Shown here: positions 10,846 to 21,037 of the stretch, piece by piece
Layout of the letters: the number at the start of each line of letters is the position of its first letter
How positions within the stretch are numbered: position 1 is the stretch's first letter
Assembly: GCF_017565645.3 (NCBI RefSeq)
Contig: NZ_CP086136.1
Coordinates: 248,001-312,000, forward strand
Reading direction: 5' to 3'
Length of the DNA stretch: 64,000 nucleotides
From: Bradyrhizobium barranii subsp. barranii
GTDB lineage: Bacteria; Pseudomonadota; Alphaproteobacteria; Rhizobiales; Xanthobacteraceae
The notes under the pieces: generated by a model
What the model was told of the DNA's origin: nothing
Databases searched by the model: none
Seen by the model: only the letters and a program-made list of their open reading frames with translations
Program-made: the position numbers and the translations under genes

Positions 10846-11685
10846 CTATCCCGTGGGCCGGTTGCGCTGGCGATCGCTGTAGAGCTTCATGATCGCCGCG
10901 GCGGTTTCCTCGATCGATCGCCGCGTGACATCGAGCAGCGGCCAGTCGTGCTTGGCGCTCAGCTTGCGCGCGAACGCGACCTCGTCGGCGACCGCCTGCC
11001 TGTCGGTATAGGTGTCGCCGCTGGTATCGGCACCCATCGAGAGCAGGCGGTTCTGGCGCACCTGGATCAGGCGTTCCGGCGTGGCATGCAGGCTCACCAC
11101 CAGCGGCCGCGTCAGGGTCTCCAATTGTGCCGGCACCGGAATGCCCGGAACCAATGGCACGTTGGCGGTGCGGATGCCGCGATTGGCCAGATAGATCGAC
11201 GTCGGTGTCTTGGAGGTGCGTGAGACGCCGACGAGCACCACGTCGGCATCATCAAGGCCTTCGACATGCTGGCCGTCGTCGTGGATCATCGTGTAGTTCA
11301 GCGCGTCGATGCGCTTGAAATATTCCGCATTGAGGACGTGCTGGGCGCCGACGCGGCCCGTGGTCGCGGCGCCGAGATAGGCTTCGAACAACTGCATCAC
11401 CGGCCCGATGATCGACAGGCTCGGAACGTTGATCTGCTTGCACTTGTCCTCGAGCCTGGAGACCAGATCCTTCTCCAGCAACGTGAACAGCACGATCCCC
11501 GGCGCCTCCTCGATCTCGTCGAGCACGCGATCGAGCTGCTTCTGGCTGCGCACCAGGGGATAGACATGCTCGACCGGGGTAACGTTGGCGTACTGCGCCG
11601 CGACGGCGCGCGCGACGGTGATCAGCGTCTCTCCGGTGGAGTCGGAGACCAGGTGGAGATGGAAATAATTGTTCGAGGTCGGCAC
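10846..11685 (-). CDS. ppsR: Pyruvate, phosphate dikinase regulatory protein (kinase/pyrophosphorylase)
   Basis: Bifunctional serine/threonine kinase and Pi-dependent phosphorylase that inactivates and reactivates pyruvate phosphate dikinase or PEP synthase (DUF299 family). The 279 residues include the start [19 protein letters not shown] and the P-loop-like [20 protein letters not shown] (about residue 155). It is the first gene left of the origin candidate and is the counterpart of the conserved gene bordering the origin in Caulobacter and Rickettsia. It probably heads the ppsR-maf-coaE-dnaQ operon. Confidence 0.93.
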
Positions 11686-12144
11686 AAAAGCCCTTTGTAT
11701 GGAGGCGGTGTGGTTTGTGGATTTCTGTGGACCTTAACCCCTCGGAAAGGGTTGCGCGACACCAGGGGCGGGACAAGTGCCAATTTTCTTCACACCACTG
11801 CCCATCGGAACAAGTCCGGCGACCCGTTGAGAGGAAAACGGGATTGCGCGGACAACCCCCTTGATAAGCTGCCGACAGAAACGCGCAAGCCTTTGAAGCT
11901 GGCCGACTTATCGAAGGCCGCCGGAAGCATCAGGGATATGTTGATGGATGTGAACAAGCGCACGTGAACGTGCGGACGGAATTGTGTGAGTCCTATTCAC
12001 GGTCACATAGACTCAAACCTTAAGAATCTAAGATTCTAGATTAGAGGAAGGCGCTACGGACGGATAAGTGTGTAGGGTGAGACCTTAACGAGTTCTTACT
12101 ATCCCCAGCGTTCCCTGCGCTGGACAGAAAGCCGGGCGCAGAAA
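11686..12144. other. oriC: Candidate chromosomal replication origin (oriC)
   Basis: 459-bp gap between diverging ppsR and hemJ with no gene. GANTC (CcrM) sites cluster at 11988 GAGTC, 12010 GACTC, 12024 GAATC and 12032 GATTC. The last two lie in the AT-rich palindrome AGAATCT-A-AGATTCT (12023-12037). DnaA-box-like TGTGGATTT (11716) and TGTGGACCT (11726) are exactly 10 bp apart; weaker TTATC/GATAA cores lie at 11863, 11908 and 12063. TTAACGAGTTCTTAC (12085-12099) fits the CtrA pattern TTAA-N7-TTAA with one mismatch. Core genes read outward on both sides, and parS-parAB lies within 10 kb. Origin function is inferred. Confidence 0.75.
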
Positions 12145-12579
12145 ATGTTCGAAGACGTCTATCTCTGGATCAAGGCGCTGCACGTGATCGCCGTCATCTC
12201 CTGGATGGCGGGCATGCTGTATCTGCCGCGGCTGTTCGTTTATCACTCCGAGGCCGAGATCGGCTCGAAGCAGTCGGAAACGTTCAAAGTGATGGAACGC
12301 CGGCTGCTCAAGGCGATCATCAACCCCGCCATGATCGTCACATGGCTTGCCGGGCTCTATCTCGCCTGGTCCGGCCACTGGTTCTCGTTCGGCTGGCTGC
12401 ACGTAAAACTGGCACTGGTCCTGGCGATGTCTGGGGTCCACGGCTTTTTTTCACGCTGGTGCAAGGATTTCGCCGCCGACCGGCGTCCGCGTAGCCAGAA
12501 ATTCTATCGAATTATCAATGAGGTGCCGACTGCTCTGATGATTTTGATCGTCATCATGGTGATCGTGAAGCCGTTCTAG
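12145..12579 (+). CDS. hemJ: Protoporphyrinogen oxidase HemJ
   Basis: Membrane protein oxidising protoporphyrinogen IX to protoporphyrin IX, the penultimate step of heme synthesis in bacteria without HemG or HemY. The 144-residue product has four membrane segments and the family residues: a His in WIKALHVIAVISWMAGML (helix 1) and a Lys in GWLHVKLALVL (helix 3). It is the first gene right of the origin candidate. The hemE gene, often next to the origin in relatives, is not present here. Confidence 0.92.
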   Translation: MFEDVYLWIKALHVIAVISWMAGMLYLPRLFVYHSEAEIGSKQSETFKVMERRLLKAIINPAMIVTWLAGLYLAWSGHWFSFGWLHVKLALVLAMSGVHGFFSRWCKDFAADRRPRSQKFYRIINEVPTALMILIVIMVIVKPF

Positions 12580-15768: not shown

Positions 15769-15810
15769 ACTAGTTCTTCATTGTAGAACTAGCGCTTGTT
15801 CCAGTCCTTG

Positions 15811-15826
15811 TGTTTCACGTGAAACG
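15811..15826 (+). promoter_or_regulatory. parS: parS site 1
   Basis: TGTTTCACGTGAAACG: exact 14-bp palindromic core, 15 of 16 to the bacterial parS consensus (TGTTTCACGTGAAACA). It is 43 bp after mnmE and is a predicted ParB loading site. Confidence 0.95.
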
Positions 15827-15848
15827 GCAATGGGATGGGTTCCGGGCC

Positions 15849-15862
15849 GTTTCACATGGAAT
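15849..15862 (+). promoter_or_regulatory. Degenerate parS-like half site
   Basis: GTTTCACATGGAAT matches the core at the left arm and CAC but is broken in the right arm. Probably a decayed copy; binding is doubtful. Confidence 0.35.
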
Positions 15863-15878
15863 AGGTGCTTGCAGTTTC

Positions 15879-15964
15879 GTAGCCCGGATGAAGTGAAGCG
15901 CAATCCGGACGGCTCCGCAGCCGGAACACCTTTCCCGGATTTCGCTGCGCTCCATCCGGGCTAC
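15879..15964. repeat. Intergenic palindrome (GTAGCCCGGATG family)
   Basis: Inverted arms GTAGCCCGGATG (15879) and CATCCGGGCTAC (ends 15964) enclose further pairing (AAGCGCAATCCGG with CCGGATTTCGCTGCG). This class is widespread in Bradyrhizobium intergenic DNA. It sits between parS sites. Confidence 0.85.
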
Positions 15965-15975
15965 AAGCTTCCTGC

Positions 15976-15990
15976 TGTTTCACTGAAACA
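15976..15990. promoter_or_regulatory. parS-like palindrome with one base missing
   Basis: TGTTTCACTGAAACA is a parS site lacking one central base pair, leaving an odd-length palindrome. The changed arm spacing should weaken ParB binding. Confidence 0.45.
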
Positions 15991-16010
15991 GGTGGTGGGC
16001 GCTTCCGGCC

Positions 16011-16026
16011 TGTTTCACGTGAAACG
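16011..16026 (+). promoter_or_regulatory. parS: parS site 2
   Basis: TGTTTCACGTGAAACG, the same 16-mer and orientation as site 1. It is exactly 200 bp after site 1. Confidence 0.95.
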
Positions 16027-16129
16027 CGAGCGGCCCTCATTGCGGCTTCTGGGCCCGCGGACTTGGGCGGGAGATTCGATTTCACTGCCCAAGCGGTCTT
16101 GGCCGTAAAAGACGCTCGTACCCCAATCT

Positions 16130-16215
16130 CGTCATTGCGAGGAGCTCTTGCGACGAAGCAATCCGGACTGCCGCCACGGAAGGATTCTGGATTGCTTCGC
16201 TCCGCTCACAATGAC
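16130..16215. repeat. Intergenic palindrome (CGTCATTGCGAG family)
   Basis: The left arm CGTCATTGCGAGG (16130) and a right end ...CACAATGAC (16215) are joined by GAAGCAATCC/GGATTGCTTC pairing. A second copy is at 21110-21196 after parB. Confidence 0.88.
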
Positions 16216-16303
16216 CGAGCAGACCCATCGCTTGGGTCCTCTCTACCTACGTCCAGAGCCGTGCGAGATGTCGCCGGGAGCTCTCTCCCGATTAGACCCA
16301 TCT

Positions 16304-16319
16304 TGTTTCACGTGAAACG
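16304..16319 (+). promoter_or_regulatory. parS: parS site 3
   Basis: TGTTTCACGTGAAACG, identical to sites 1 and 2 over 16 bp. Confidence 0.95.
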
Positions 16320-16338
16320 GCAGTCCTCTCAATGCCCC

Positions 16339-16365
16339 TTCTACTGTGCATGGGGTTGTTTTCGC
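16339..16365 (+). repeat. 27-bp dispersed repeat, copy 1
   Basis: A 27-bp string containing CTGTGCATGGGGTTGTTTTC is repeated exactly at 55353-55379. It lies between parS sites 3 and 4. Confidence 0.85.
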
Positions 16366-16394
16366 GAAAATGCGCATCGCCTACTTGGCCGCAC

Positions 16395-16410
16395 CGTTTC
16401 ACGTGAAACA
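16395..16410 (-). promoter_or_regulatory. parS: parS site 4
   Basis: CGTTTCACGTGAAACA, the reverse complement of the 16-mer in sites 1-3. It is 58 bp before the mnmG start codon, so it probably overlaps or flanks the mnmG promoter. Confidence 0.95.
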
Positions 16411-16467
16411 ACCGACTCACTCAGTTTCTACTTCCGGCGTCTCCGCCTCTGCTATAGAAGTCCGCCC

Positions 16468-18348
16468 ATGCGAACAGAGCGAGAGAGTTTCGACGTCATC
16501 GTGATTGGCGGCGGCCACGCCGGCTGTGAAGCCGCGGCCGCTTCCGCCCGGATGGGTGCGACGACCGCTCTGGTGACGCACCGTTTCTCCACCGTTGGCG
16601 CGATGTCCTGCAACCCCGCGATTGGCGGTCTCGGCAAGGGCCATCTGGTCCGCGAGGTCGATGCTCTCGATGGTCTGATGGGCCGGGTCGGCGATGCCGG
16701 CGGCATCCAGTTCCGCGTCCTCAATCGCCGCAAGGGACCGGCTGTCCGGGGCCCTCGGGCTCAGGCCGACCGGAAGCTCTATGCCGCAGCCATGCAGGCC
16801 GCGATCCGGGACACCGAAGGTCTTTCCGTCATCGAGGGCGAGGCAGACGAGCTGATCGTGGTCGAGGACCGGGTGACCGGACTACGCCTGGCGGACGGCC
16901 GCGAGCTTCGGGCAGGGGCCGTCGTCGTCACCACCGGCACGTTTCTCCGCGGTCTGATCCATCTCGGCGAGAAGAACTGGCCCGCCGGCCGGGTCGGCGA
17001 GGCGCCCGCGATGGGTCTTTCGAGCTCCTTTGAGCGGGCAGGCTTCACCCTTGGACGGCTCAAGACCGGCACTCCGCCGCGTCTGGATGGCACCACGATC
17101 GACTGGTCAGCGGTCGAGATGCAGCCCGGTGACGAGCCTCCGGAGCCGTTCTCGGTGATGACGGAGCGGATCACGACCCCGCAGATCCAGTGCGGGATCA
17201 CCCGGACGACCTCCGCGACCCATGAGGTGATCCGCGCGAACGTCCATCGCTCGCCGATGTACTCCGGCCAGATCAAGAGCTCCGGACCGCGCTACTGTCC
17301 CTCGATCGAGGACAAGATCGTCCGCTTCGGCGACCGCGACGGCCATCAGATCTTCCTGGAGCCGGAAGGGCTCGACGATAGCACCGTCTATCCCAACGGC
17401 ATCTCGACCTCGCTGCCGGAGGAGATCCAGCTCGCGATCCTCGCCAGCATTCCTGGCCTAGAGCAGGTGAAGATGGTCCGTCCGGGCTATGCCATCGAGT
17501 ACGACCACATCGATCCCCGCGAGCTCGATCCGACCCTGCAGACCAAACGTCTGCGTGGTCTCTTCCTGGCTGGGCAGATCAACGGCACCACCGGATACGA
17601 AGAAGCTGCCGGGCAGGGTATCGTGGCCGGCCTGAACGCGGCTTTGGCGGCGAGCGGCGCCGCCCCGACCGTGTTCGACCGTGCCGATGGCTATCTCGGT
17701 GTGATGATCGACGACCTCGTCACCCGCGGGATCAGCGAACCCTATCGGATGTTCACCTCACGCGCCGAGTACCGGCTGACCCTGCGCGCCGACAATGCCG
17801 ATCAGCGCCTCACCGAGAAGGGGATTGCGCTTGGATGCGTCGGGAGCGCCCGGACGCAGCATCACCGCGCCAAGATGGACGCCCTGAATGCGGCCAGGGC
17901 GCTGTCGAAGTCCCTGACCATCACCCCGAACGAGGCGATCAAGCACGGCCTGTCCCTGAACCGGGACGGCCAGCGTCGTTCGGCGTTCGAGTTGATGGCC
18001 TATCCGGATATCGGCTGGAGTCAGGTCCGGACCATCTGGCCGGAGCTGTCGGCGATCGACCCGGTCATCGCCACCCATCTGGAGATCGACGCGAAGTACG
18101 ACGTCTATCTCGAGCGCCAGAGCGCTGACGTCGAAGCTTTCAGGCGAGACGAGGGGATGGTGCTGTCGGACGTCGATTACCAGCAGGTCCCGGGTCTTTC
18201 CAACGAGGTGCGGGCCAAGCTTGAGAAGGCGCGGCCGTTCACCGTCGGCCAGGCTGGCCGGATCGACGGCATGACGCCGGCGGCGCTCGGCATCCTCGCG
18301 GCCTACCTCCGGCGCGAGGCACGGAAGACCTCAAAGGCGATCGCATAG
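16468..18348 (+). CDS. mnmG: tRNA uridine-5-carboxymethylaminomethyl modification enzyme MnmG
   Basis: FAD-dependent partner of MnmE in U34 modification (GidA). From [20 protein letters not shown] the 626 residues cover the family: FAD dinucleotide fold at the N-terminus, the [17 protein letters not shown] block with the conserved Cys, [21 protein letters not shown] near residue 375, and the C-terminal helical MnmE-binding region. The open frame extends to 16063 through repeats and parS sites; that part is not protein-like, so ATG 16468 is the start. rsmG follows after 9 bp. Confidence 0.97.
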
Positions 18349-18349
18349 G

Positions 18350-18365
18350 CGTTTCACGTGAAACA
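18350..18365 (-). promoter_or_regulatory. parS: parS site 5, overlapping the rsmG start codon
   Basis: CGTTTCACGTGAAACA fills the 9-bp mnmG-rsmG gap and continues into rsmG. The GTG of its centre (18358-18360) is the only possible rsmG start codon. Confidence 0.93.
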
Positions 18366-19128
18366 GCGCGGGCCGGGCGGCAGATCGTCATCAGGGAAAC
18401 CAGCGGCAGGTGAGGGCGCGAGCCGTCGATCCGAGCCGACGCCGATCAAACCGAAGATCGACAAGGCCAGCGCCAACGATCGGTCGCTGGACTCCATCAT
18501 CGCGGCGGACAAGCTCACGGCGCTCAGGCTCGCCCCCGTTTCACGTGAAACCGAAGAACGACTCGATCGCTACATCGCGCTGCTCCGCGAGTGGCAGGCC
18601 AAGACCAATCTGGTCGCGCCCTCGACCCTGCCGCAGCTCTGGACCCGGCATATCGCCGACTCGCTCCAGCTCGTCGATCTCGCTCCTTCGGCCAAACGCT
18701 GGGCCGACCTCGGCAGCGGCGGTGGCTTTCCCGGAATCGTCCTCGCCTGTGCCATGGCCGGGACGCCTGGCGCCAGCGTCCATCTCGTCGAGCGAATCGC
18801 CAAGAAGGCGGCCTTTCTGCGCGAAGCAGTTCGCGTCACCGCATCGCCGGGGCTCGTACATCTCGCGGAGATCGGGGATAATGTGGATAGAATCACCGGC
18901 CCCGTGGATTGCGTCACCGCGCGTGCGCTGGCTCCGCTACATCAACTCATCGGCTTTGCGGAGCCGCTGATGCGCCAAGGTGCAAAAGCGCTGTTTCCGA
19001 AGGGTCAAGATGTAGAGGCTGAATTGACCGAAGCCGCTAAATATTGGAATATCCAGCCGCAGCTTCACCAAAGCCGTACCGGCGACGGTTGGATCGTCGA
19101 GCTGACGTCCGTCGAGCAGCGCGGCTGA
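18358..19128 (+). CDS. rsmG: 16S rRNA (guanine-527-N7)-methyltransferase RsmG
   Basis: SAM-dependent methyltransferase (GidB) acting on G527 of 16S rRNA. The 256 residues contain WADLGSGGGFPGIVLA (SAM site, about residue 119) and FPKGQDVEAELTEA near the C-terminus. A basic, low-complexity N-terminal extension of about 50 residues precedes the family domain. The only in-frame start after the mnmG stop is the GTG at 18358, inside a parS palindrome; a second parS core encodes VSRET at about residues 61-65. The ribosome site is weak, suggesting coupling to mnmG. parA follows after 30 bp. Confidence 0.93.
   Translation: MKQRGPGGRSSSGKPAAGEGASRRSEPTPIKPKIDKASANDRSLDSIIAADKLTALRLAPVSRETEERLDRYIALLREWQAKTNLVAPSTLPQLWTRHIADSLQLVDLAPSAKRWADLGSGGGFPGIVLACAMAGTPGASVHLVERIAKKAAFLREAVRVTASPGLVHLAEIGDNVDRITGPVDCVTARALAPLHQLIGFAEPLMRQGAKALFPKGQDVEAELTEAAKYWNIQPQLHQSRTGDGWIVELTSVEQRG
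18537..18552. promoter_or_regulatory. parS: parS site 6, inside rsmG coding sequence
   Basis: CGTTTCACGTGAAACC retains the exact 14-bp core while encoding Val-Ser-Arg-Glu-Thr in rsmG. It is 14 of 16 to the consensus. Confidence 0.92.
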
Positions 19129-19158: not shown

Positions 19159-20013
19159 ATGAGCGTGATTGACGAACCGCAGCAGCAACAGACCGGCGAA
19201 GTGCCGCAGGGCCACCCGCGCATCCTGGCGCTGGCGAATCAGAAGGGCGGCGTGGGAAAAACAACCACGGCGATCAATCTTGGCACGGCACTCGCTGCGA
19301 TCGGCGAGCGCGTCCTGATCGTCGATCTCGATCCGCAGGGCAACGCCTCGACCGGCCTCGGCATCGATCGCCGCAACCGCTCCTGCTCGACCTATGACGT
19401 GCTGATCGGCGAAGCCGCTCTGCGCGAGGCGGTGGTCTCGACCGCGGTGCCGCGGCTGCACATCGCACCCTCGACCATGGACCTCTCCGGCCTCGAGCTC
19501 GAGCTCGGCACCACGCCCGGCCGCGCCTTCAAGCTGCGCGACGCCATCGGCGCGCTCAACAACAACGTCTCGCCGGACGCCGATTACACCTATGTGCTGA
19601 TCGACTGCCCGCCCTCGCTCAACCTGCTCACGGTGAACGCGATGGCGGCCTCCGATGCGATCCTGGTGCCGCTCCAGTGCGAGTTCTTCGCGCTCGAGGG
19701 TCTGTCGCAATTGCTCCAGACGGTGGAGCAGGTGCGCTCGACGCTCAATCCGAACCTGTCGATCCACGGCATCGTGCTGACCATGTTCGACTCGCGCAAC
19801 AACCTCTCGAACCAGGTCGTCGCCGACGTCCGTCAGTTCATGGGCGAGAAGGTCTACAAGACCATGATCCCGCGCAACGTGCGCATCTCGGAAGCGCCGT
19901 CCTACGGCAAGCCGGTCCTGGTCTACGATCTCAAATGCGTCGGCAGCGAAGCGTATCTGCGGCTCGCCACCGAAGTGATCCAGCGCGAGCGCGAGCTGCG
20001 CACCACGCATTGA
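19159..20013 (+). CDS. parA: Chromosome partitioning ATPase ParA
   Basis: Walker-type ATPase that binds DNA non-specifically and moves ParB-parS complexes. The 284 residues have a 24-residue polar N-terminus, the deviant Walker A QKGGVGKTTTAINLG (about residue 31), switch I VDLDPQGNASTGLG and Walker B VLIDCPPSLNLLT. The C-terminal NVRISEAPSYGKPVL is typical of chromosomal ParA/Soj. It is upstream of parB, separated by a palindromic repeat, and next to the parS cluster. Confidence 0.97.
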   Translation: MSVIDEPQQQQTGEVPQGHPRILALANQKGGVGKTTTAINLGTALAAIGERVLIVDLDPQGNASTGLGIDRRNRSCSTYDVLIGEAALREAVVSTAVPRLHIAPSTMDLSGLELELGTTPGRAFKLRDAIGALNNNVSPDADYTYVLIDCPPSLNLLTVNAMAASDAILVPLQCEFFALEGLSQLLQTVEQVRSTLNPNLSIHGIVLTMFDSRNNLSNQVVADVRQFMGEKVYKTMIPRNVRISEAPSYGKPVLVYDLKCVGSEAYLRLATEVIQRERELRTTH

Positions 20014-20019
20014 CGATGC

Positions 20020-20102
20020 CGTAGGGTGGGCAAAGGCCTCTTCGCCGTGCCCACCATCTTCCGCGCAAACTGGTGGGCACGCTTTGCTTTGCCCACCCTA
20101 CG
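20020..20102. repeat. Intergenic palindrome (CGTAGGGTGGGCAAAG family)
   Basis: Outer arms CGTAGGGTGGGCAAAG and CTTTGCCCACCCTACG, with an inner pair GTGCCCACCA/TGGTGGGCAC. It fills the parA-parB gap and could form a long RNA hairpin within the parAB message. Related copies are at 33068 and 33143-33232. Confidence 0.9.
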
Positions 20103-20149
20103 ATAATTCAGTTCTGGAGTGTTGCACCGTGAATCCAAGGGAGCTGGCG

Positions 20150-21037
20150 ATGGCCGACGAAGCGCGTTCGCGACTGGGCCGGGGTCTTGCGAGTCTGATC
20201 GGTGATGTCGGCGGCGAGGCTCAGCATGTCGATCGTCCGCGCGCGCAGCGCAAGGTGCCGATCGAATTCATCAAGCCCAATCCGCGCAACCCGCGCCGCG
20301 CCTTTTCGGAAACGGAGCTCAAGGAGCTCTCTGATTCGATCAGGCAGCACGGCGTGATCCAGCCGATCGTCGTGCGTCCGGTGAAGGGCGCGCAGGATCG
20401 CTTCGAGATCATCGCCGGCGAACGGCGCTGGCGCGCGTCGCAGATAGCCGGCCTGCACGAAGTGCCGATCGTGCCGGTCGACATCAGCGACAGCGATGCT
20501 CTGGAGTTCGCGATCGTCGAGAACGTGCAGCGCGAAGACCTCAACCCGATGGAAGAGGCGCTCGGCTATCACGCGCTCGCCAACGAGTTCAAACGCAGCC
20601 AGGACGACATCGCAAAGGTCGTCGGCAAGAGCCGCAGCCACATCGCCAACATGATGCGGCTGACGAAACTGCCGGCCGAAGTGCAGGCCTTGATCACGAG
20701 CGGCGAGCTGACCGCCGGCCACGCCCGCGCGCTGATCGGCGTGCCCGATCCGCTCGCATCGGCCAGGCGCATCGTCGCGGAAGGCCTCAACGTCCGCCAG
20801 GCCGAAGCCCTCGCGCACGAAGAGGGTGTGCCGGAGCGCAAGCCGCAGAAGGCGCGCAGCACCGGGGGCAAGGAAAAAGACCCCGACACGATCGATCTCG
20901 AAAAGCGCGTCAGCGATGCGCTTGGCCTCAAGGTCACGGTCAATCACCGCGACCCCGGCGGCTCCGTCCAGATCAACTATCGTAACCTCGATCAGCTCGA
21001 CGAGGTGATGAGGCGGCTCGCGAAGGGCGCGCTGTAG
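20150..21037 (+). CDS. parB: Chromosome partitioning protein ParB
   Basis: CTP-dependent DNA clamp that loads at parS and spreads. The 295 residues begin MADEARSRLGRGLASLIGD, the ParA-interacting N-terminus. Then come the CTP-binding domain with GERRWRAS (the GERR box, about residue 94) and ENVQREDLNPMEEALGY, a helix-turn-helix DDIAKVVGKSRSHIANM, and a C-terminal dimer domain. The frame opens earlier at 20084, but the ATG at 20150 has AAGGGAGC upstream and matches the family. Confidence 0.97.
   Translation: MADEARSRLGRGLASLIGDVGGEAQHVDRPRAQRKVPIEFIKPNPRNPRRAFSETELKELSDSIRQHGVIQPIVVRPVKGAQDRFEIIAGERRWRASQIAGLHEVPIVPVDISDSDALEFAIVENVQREDLNPMEEALGYHALANEFKRSQDDIAKVVGKSRSHIANMMRLTKLPAEVQALITSGELTAGHARALIGVPDPLASARRIVAEGLNVRQAEALAHEEGVPERKPQKARSTGGKEKDPDTIDLEKRVSDALGLKVTVNHRDPGGSVQINYRNLDQLDEVMRRLAKGAL

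Follow-up and report, generated by a model that had tools for sequence, protein, structure and literature searches.

The chromosomal replication origin of Caulobacter crescentus, Cori, has parABS close by. It has been mapped experimentally and is flanked by ppsR (COG1806/DUF299) and hemE, and few or no CtrA sites are described for some other alphaproteobacterial origins in the same report (PMC1914354). Caulobacter origins with GANTC sites and the extra chromosomes that follow CcrM overproduction are both cited in PMC3973325, which also describes normal initiation, and normal DNA content after rifampicin, in Caulobacter without CcrM. In Agrobacterium tumefaciens, ori2 responded when CcrM was depleted or in excess, whereas ori1 showed no significant change (PMC11514494). 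For the Bradyrhizobiaceae, the origins of ten genomes predicted by Ori-Finder adjoin gidA and contain the palindrome TGTTTCACGTGAAACA, and TGTTTCACG, which lies inside TGTTTCACGTGAAACA next to gidA, was proposed as the DnaA box of the family (PMC2275245). TGTTTCACG was also used to identify the origin in a B. diazoefficiens assembly (PMC4840208) and to call that of O. carboxidovorans (PMC3091675). A literature search of titles and abstract openings, with subscription journals mostly outside its coverage, found no report of GANTC sites in a Bradyrhizobium origin.

The window analyzed in this study is a 64-kb stretch (C1:248001-312000) of the 11.4-Mb genome of Bradyrhizobium barranii, which is assembled in four contigs. 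Judged from its sequence, the intergenic gap between ppsR and hemJ (11686-12144) is very probably the chromosomal origin (oriC) of this bacterium. The call, already made in the first-pass annotation, is well supported by GC skew and by orthology to the Cori gap, as well as by the DnaA boxes, the unwinding-prone core, deep conservation and the parS sites nearby. The first-pass annotation placed the gap between two diverging genes, and this is borne out by the coordinates, strands and family matches of ppsR (10846-11685, minus strand; PF03618 and NF003742) and hemJ (12145-12579, plus strand; TIGR00701). Rightward from hemJ, the gene order is rho, mnmE, mnmG, rsmG, parA and parB, of which the last two (19159-20013 and 20084-21037) are on the plus strand. 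No RNA element was found at the Rfam gathering threshold between 11000 and 13000.

Synteny, together with the skew minimum of three genomes, identifies the gap as a putative orthologue of the Caulobacter Cori gap. The likeness to Cori claimed in the first-pass annotation holds except for hemE, which is absent from the locus and lies at C1:2.73 Mb. In all 25 genus genomes compared (B. barranii included), hemJ adjoins ppsR; in 13 of the 25 loci, the position of the hemJ start is approximate, and so is the right edge of the gap that it defines. Outside the genus, 30 family loci from other genera were compared: 19 had hemE no more than 1.5 kb away on the right side, nine had hemJ but not hemE, and two had neither gene. 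All five order-level loci tested also had hemE within 1.5 kb on the right side. We infer that the gap is a Cori orthologue that lost hemE or from which hemE was moved away. The presence of hemJ instead of hemE beside the origin was observed in Bradyrhizobium and nine sampled genera (L329-L358 compared with L009).

Cumulative GC skew was calculated on contiguous stretches of 452 kb in B. barranii and of 400 kb in each of the genomes G021 and G015. The latter two stretches were centred on the GANTC dyad described below, and the rest of the chromosome was sampled in B. barranii and G015 only. The skew minimum of B. barranii was at 243,474, which is 16.5 kb from the dyad at 259,988. In G021, the minimum (950,614) and the dyad (957,336) were 6.7 kb apart, and in G015 (5,317,934 and 5,317,583, respectively) they were 351 bp apart. 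The skew switch anticipated at the gap was found near it in all three genomes, at a resolution that is coarse in B. barranii and G021. Among 63 stretches of at most 20 kb from B. barranii, 28 came from the right arm, of which 21 had positive skew, and 35 from the left arm, of which eight did. The final 0.3 Mb of the contig, sampled in five pieces, gave mixed signs. In G015, 20 spaced samples had negative skew between 1.4 and 5.0 Mb and, apart from 7.4 Mb, positive skew on the other arm, a pattern that an origin near 5.3 Mb would give. The KOPS-like motif GGGNAGGG occurred 62 times forward and 17 times reverse in the right-arm stretches of B. barranii, and 19 and 49 times, respectively, in those of the left arm. 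Within 200 kb, the forward and reverse counts were 6 and 16 on the left and 13 and 6 on the right in G021, and 4 and 17 on the left and 9 and 5 on the right in G015. Local polarity was weak in B. barranii (8 and 10 on the left, 15 and 9 on the right).

The skew also bears on an origin located at dnaA, which is 260 kb off, at the start of the record, and has a cluster of DnaA boxes. The region upstream of dnaA (C1:10,691,826-10,692,121; L279) contains four boxes with at most one mismatch, the densest in the 1.25 Mb sampled. However, the skew sum of B. barranii is still falling from dnaA to about 243 kb, and dnaA of G015 is about 198 kb from the skew minimum. The boxes upstream of dnaA would also fit autoregulation of dnaA or titration of DnaA. 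Because the skew sum continues to fall beyond dnaA, a dnaA-proximal origin was rejected and is considered exceedingly improbable. Since skew is flat over about 20 kb in B. barranii and G021, it cannot by itself separate the ppsR-hemJ gap from the parS cluster that lies to its right.

The ppsR-hemJ gap contains several DnaA-box-like sites. The tandem TGTGGA boxes reported in the first-pass annotation, 10 bp apart, are present at 11716 and 11726 (11716-11731, minus strand) and, as assigned from sequence, resemble DnaA boxes. They are kept as TGTGRA/TGTGGA in an alignment of 25 genomes, in which the TGTGGA of the second copy is invariant. Two further DnaA boxes, TTCTTCACA (11786-11794, plus strand) and TTGTTCACA (11949-11957, minus strand), each differ from TTATNCACA by one mismatch and are conserved in the same alignment. 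When compared with TTATNCACA, the gap (459 bp) has two boxes with at most one mismatch and five with at most two, and the latter number was reached by 2 of 984 tiled segments of 459 bp. At least two boxes with at most one mismatch were found in the gap of all 25 genus genomes.

The DnaA boxes are accompanied by a probable DNA unwinding element at 11993-12042, which is calculated to be the least stable 50 bp of both the gap and the window (-58.9 kcal/mol, nearest-neighbour sum). Eight places in the 1.25 Mb sampled, the gap included, are equally unstable. The GACTC site is part of the gap's least stable 50 bp in all 25 genus genomes. Among 35 unstable places in the 1.25 Mb, 31 have no GANTC, three have one and the gap has three. 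Thus, instability alone does not create GANTC.

Four parS-like sites, defined as 16-bp palindromes resembling TGTTTCACGTGAAACA with at most two mismatches, start at 15811, 16011, 16304 and 16395 in the mnmE-mnmG gap (15811-16410), and two more are in the end of mnmG and in rsmG (18350-18552). The six sites are 3.8-6.5 kb from the dyad and near parAB, and there are none elsewhere in the 1.25 Mb sampled, the ppsR-hemJ gap included. Together with parA and parB, these sites (15811-18552) agree with the earlier placement of parABS in the neighborhood. Of the 117 plausible named loci among the matches listed, 33 extend 5.5 kb or more to the right, and in each of these the distance from the dyad to the first parS is 3.6-3.9 kb. 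The TGTTTCACGTGAAACA palindrome corresponds to the consensus of parS, the target of ParB, and parB is encoded nearby. TGTTTCACG is identical to the first nine bases of the six parS-like palindromes, and the densest TGTTTCACG cluster in the 1.25-Mb sample is the parS cluster. Given that TGTTTCACG is part of the parS palindrome, origins placed with TGTTTCACG, those of B. diazoefficiens and O. carboxidovorans among them, probably sit on the centromere. If the 'species-specific DnaA box' of the family is part of a ParB site, origin placements made with it would be shifted onto the centromere. This is a possible correction to the literature, for which no priority is claimed.

The parS-bearing mnmE-mnmG (gidA) gap, about 4 kb rightward, would itself be the origin if the Ori-Finder box TGTTTCACG were followed. 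Ori-Finder puts the Bradyrhizobiaceae origins next to gidA with TGTTTCACGTGAAACA (PMC2275245), and a distance of 4 kb is beyond the resolution of GC skew in two of the three genomes. However, the mnmE-mnmG gap (15769-16480) has no box with at most one mismatch to TTATNCACA and three with at most two, and its least stable 50 bp has -66.5 kcal/mol compared with -58.9 kcal/mol in the ppsR-hemJ gap. In addition, the skew sum of G015 is -1801 at the ppsR-hemJ gap versus -1641 to -1694 at parS, and the skew minimum is closer to the ppsR-hemJ gap than to parS in all three genomes. The palindrome there would, moreover, be explained as parS. On DnaA boxes and stability, the mnmE-mnmG gap is a much less likely origin than the ppsR-hemJ gap, and we regard it as very improbable.

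All four GANTC sites listed in the first-pass annotation are present: GAGTC at 11988, GACTC at 12010, GAATC at 12024 and GATTC at 12032, which together span 49 bp (11988-12036). The accompanying chance expectation of about one GANTC per 256 bp has to be revised, because the density in 1,252,000 sampled bases of the B. barranii genome was one per 540 bp. At least four GANTC within 60 bp or less were found at two places in these bases, the gap and C1:9,500,671. The second place extends over C1:9500671-9500717 (L079). The first two sites of the gap form a GANTC dyad, GAGTC-N17-GACTC (11988-12014), whose arms TGAGTC and GACTCA surround a weak DnaA-like core. The third site, AGANTCT (12023-12029), has an N that varies among genera, and the fourth, GATTC (12032-12036), is limited to part of the genus. 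The AT-rich palindrome attributed to two of the sites is real and reads AGAATC-TAA-GATTCT. In the 25 genus genomes, B. barranii included, the right arm of the dyad and the third site were both conserved in 25, the left arm, and with it the dyad, in 24 and the fourth site in 13.

The conservation of the dyad was also apparent in pattern searches. GANTC-N5-CAC-N9-GANTCAAA matched 204 of 242 genus genomes (199 of the 228 good ones), with a single match per genome except for one genome that had a second, unrelated match, and its reversed control gave one match in the 242 genomes. The pattern was absent from the other 38 genomes, including G006, in which the left arm is lost. In G346, the dyad is at C1:684,816. 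Among the matches listed, the unrelated one excepted, the left arm of the dyad had G as its N and the right arm had C. Similarly, TGAGTC-N16-AGACTCAAA matched 12 of 149 genomes of a family sample, once each, comprising all 7 of the genus and 5 of the 142 others, the latter from three further genera; its reversed control matched none of the 149. Among the matches listed from named sequences, 109 of 119 stretches had both ppsR and hemJ within 700 bp, each on its expected side, and eight had ppsR or hemJ where the slice ends. The remaining two, a Sulfurimonas and a Pirellula bin, showed neither gene and are probably chance matches. These named matches were mostly from Bradyrhizobium, with three from Rhodopseudomonas and some from alphaproteobacterial bins.

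For comparison beyond the genus, the family offered 46 other genera, of which 35 were picked by hand and 11 left out; loci were obtained from 30 of those picked. The five picked genera without a locus were those with the least similar ppsR, and one of the 30 loci (G107) was included because of an earlier match to the pair pattern. AGANTCT was found in 27 of the 30 loci and in 26 of 29 when G107 was set aside. Over all family copies of AGANTCT, the N was A in 12, T in 11, C in 7 and G in 6. At the aligned third site, it was A in 16, T in 8 and G in 6, with no C, and its information was 0.54 bits, while the six fixed bases ranged from 1.45 to 2.00 bits and the mean column was 0.57. At least three GANTC per 60 bp occurred in 19 of the 30 loci, compared with 1.4 expected from dinucleotide shuffles, and at least two in 29, compared with 9.8. 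Moreover, GANTC was within the least stable 50 bp in 29 of the 30 loci, compared with 11.0 expected by random placement. The exact GAGTC-N17-GACTC dyad was present in seven of them. The GANTC sites fall within the melting element, and what is conserved in them is GANTC itself.

At the order level, 12 loci were obtained from 16 genomes; three genomes had no ppsR match and G035, whose match was weak, was omitted. Of the 12 loci, 4 had at least three GANTC per 60 bp (0.4 expected), 5 had AGANTCT and 7 had a GANTC in their least stable segment of 50 bp (3.4 expected). That segment was free of GANTC in the other five loci, two of which (L364 and L365) are cut by contig ends. The conservation of GANTC at the order level is mixed.

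The genome of B. barranii encodes a CcrM-like methylase with N6_N4_Mtase and RAMA domains, which scored 608.9 bits against NF050803, under the cut-off of 830, as well as GcrA-family proteins. In cultured B. diazoefficiens, 99.76% of GANTC sites were methylated (PMC4840208). A RAMA match was found in all 12 order-level genomes, including the five without GANTC in the least stable 50 bp, and was missing from 2 of 42 genomes, G057 and G044, both of which are drafts. The origin of G057 (L344) has lost AGANTCT but kept the dyad, and in that of G044 (L353), no 60 bp contain more than one GANTC, but AGATTCT is kept. In the most likely reading, which we put forward tentatively, methylation by CcrM would tune the melting of the origin or the loading of DnaA. 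The GANTC sites of Caulobacter origins and the extra chromosomes of Caulobacter overproducing CcrM (PMC3973325) speak for this reading. Against it stand the normal initiation of Caulobacter without CcrM (PMC3973325), the lack of a significant response of ori1 in A. tumefaciens (PMC11514494), the five order-level loci whose melting element has no GANTC and the 38 genus genomes that do not match the pair pattern. Methylation-timed re-initiation, as suggested in the first-pass annotation, is not supported, the results in these two other Alphaproteobacteria being contrary to it. A more specific version of the reading is rather doubtful: the unwinding element of the family would be a CcrM-methylated switch, with the hemimethylated GAGTC-N17-GACTC as its sensor, and methylation would change melting or the loading of DnaA and help to limit firing to once per cycle.

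The GANTC sites might instead be a by-product of an AT-rich palindromic protein-binding site, their methylation being incidental. AGANTCT is a palindrome with a free centre, which a dimeric DNA-binding protein could also need; the arms of the dyad keep their N bases among the matches listed; and order-level loci exist with a CcrM match but no GANTC in the melting element. On the other hand, other unstable DNA of the B. barranii genome is nearly free of GANTC, as seen from the 31 places above, and although the individual sites turn over among genera, the pairing of at least two per 60 bp is kept in 29 of 30 family loci, well above the shuffle expectation. This explanation is a real possibility that falls short of being probable.

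Alternatively, the gap could be the origin while its GANTC cluster serves as a CcrM/GcrA-controlled promoter of ppsR or hemJ rather than in initiation. Both arms of the dyad fit the YGAKTC core of the GcrA-activated promoter motif YGAKTCG (PMC7987155), but the final G of the motif is missing in them. GcrA-family proteins are encoded in the genome, and the N bases of the arms are fixed among the matches listed. However, the GANTC cluster persists irrespective of which gene, hemE or hemJ, follows on the right. Some 300 bp separate it from ppsR, and in 29 of 30 family loci it falls on the least stable segment. A role of the cluster as such a promoter is unlikely in our judgment.

The CtrA-like TTAA-N7-TTAC, TTAACGAGTTCTTAC, noted in the first-pass annotation is present at 12085-12099 (plus strand), 45 bp before hemJ. 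Control by CtrA, which had been suggested along with it, was not sustained: the site is found in 13 of the 25 genus genomes and absent from the other 12. TTAA-N7-TTAA, to which this site has one mismatch, has no exact copy in the gap. A CtrA-timed origin was rejected, as the CtrA-like site is lineage-limited. In one clade, TTAACGAGTTCTTAC may act as a promoter element of hemJ.

With the ppsR-hemJ gap as origin, the binding sites of DnaA would be the conserved boxes toward ppsR (11716-11731, 11786-11794 and 11949-11957) and perhaps also the weak DnaA-like core within the GANTC dyad. As is general for bacterial origins, DnaA would then open the unstable 50 bp at 11993-12042, where the helicase would be loaded. 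ParB, bound to the parS cluster 3.8-6.5 kb off, would move the new origins apart. Methylation of the GANTC sites by CcrM may tune melting or the loading of DnaA, a step that is much less certain than the origin itself. The gap provides an origin address at the sequence level for a large and agriculturally important genus. Moreover, it makes an old question testable, namely whether initiation at an alphaproteobacterial origin is influenced by CcrM methylation there.

In oriC of Escherichia coli (GATC/Dam/SeqA), adenine-methylation sites are within the unwinding repeats. The ppsR-hemJ gap is similar to it in having methylation sites in a probable unwinding element and different in the methylase and the sequence methylated. 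To our knowledge, there is no SeqA in Alphaproteobacteria. If the proposed switch is real, it would be a methylation-controlled origin that evolved independently of Dam/SeqA. Similar to the gap, ori2/repABC of A. tumefaciens is an alphaproteobacterial origin with GANTC motifs; ori2, which is CcrM-sensitive, depends on RepC, whereas ori1, which was not significantly affected, depends on DnaA (PMC11514494). The Bradyrhizobiaceae 'oriC' of Ori-Finder is in the same neighborhood, beside gidA/mnmG, but was placed on TGTTTCACGTGAAACA, about 4 kb away (PMC2275245). Finally, the gap shares with Cori of C. crescentus the position beside ppsR/COG1806, DnaA boxes and an AT-rich part (PMC1914354), as well as several GANTC sites, as reported for Cori (PMC3973325). 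Different from Cori, hemE is absent and hemJ abuts the gap in Bradyrhizobium, and the CtrA-like sites number five in Cori and at most one in Bradyrhizobium, in part of the genus only. Also different from Cori, the GANTC sites of Bradyrhizobium are concentrated in the least stable segment, with the GAGTC-N17-GACTC dyad. By its sequence features, the ppsR-hemJ gap is predicted to be a variant of the Cori-type origin.
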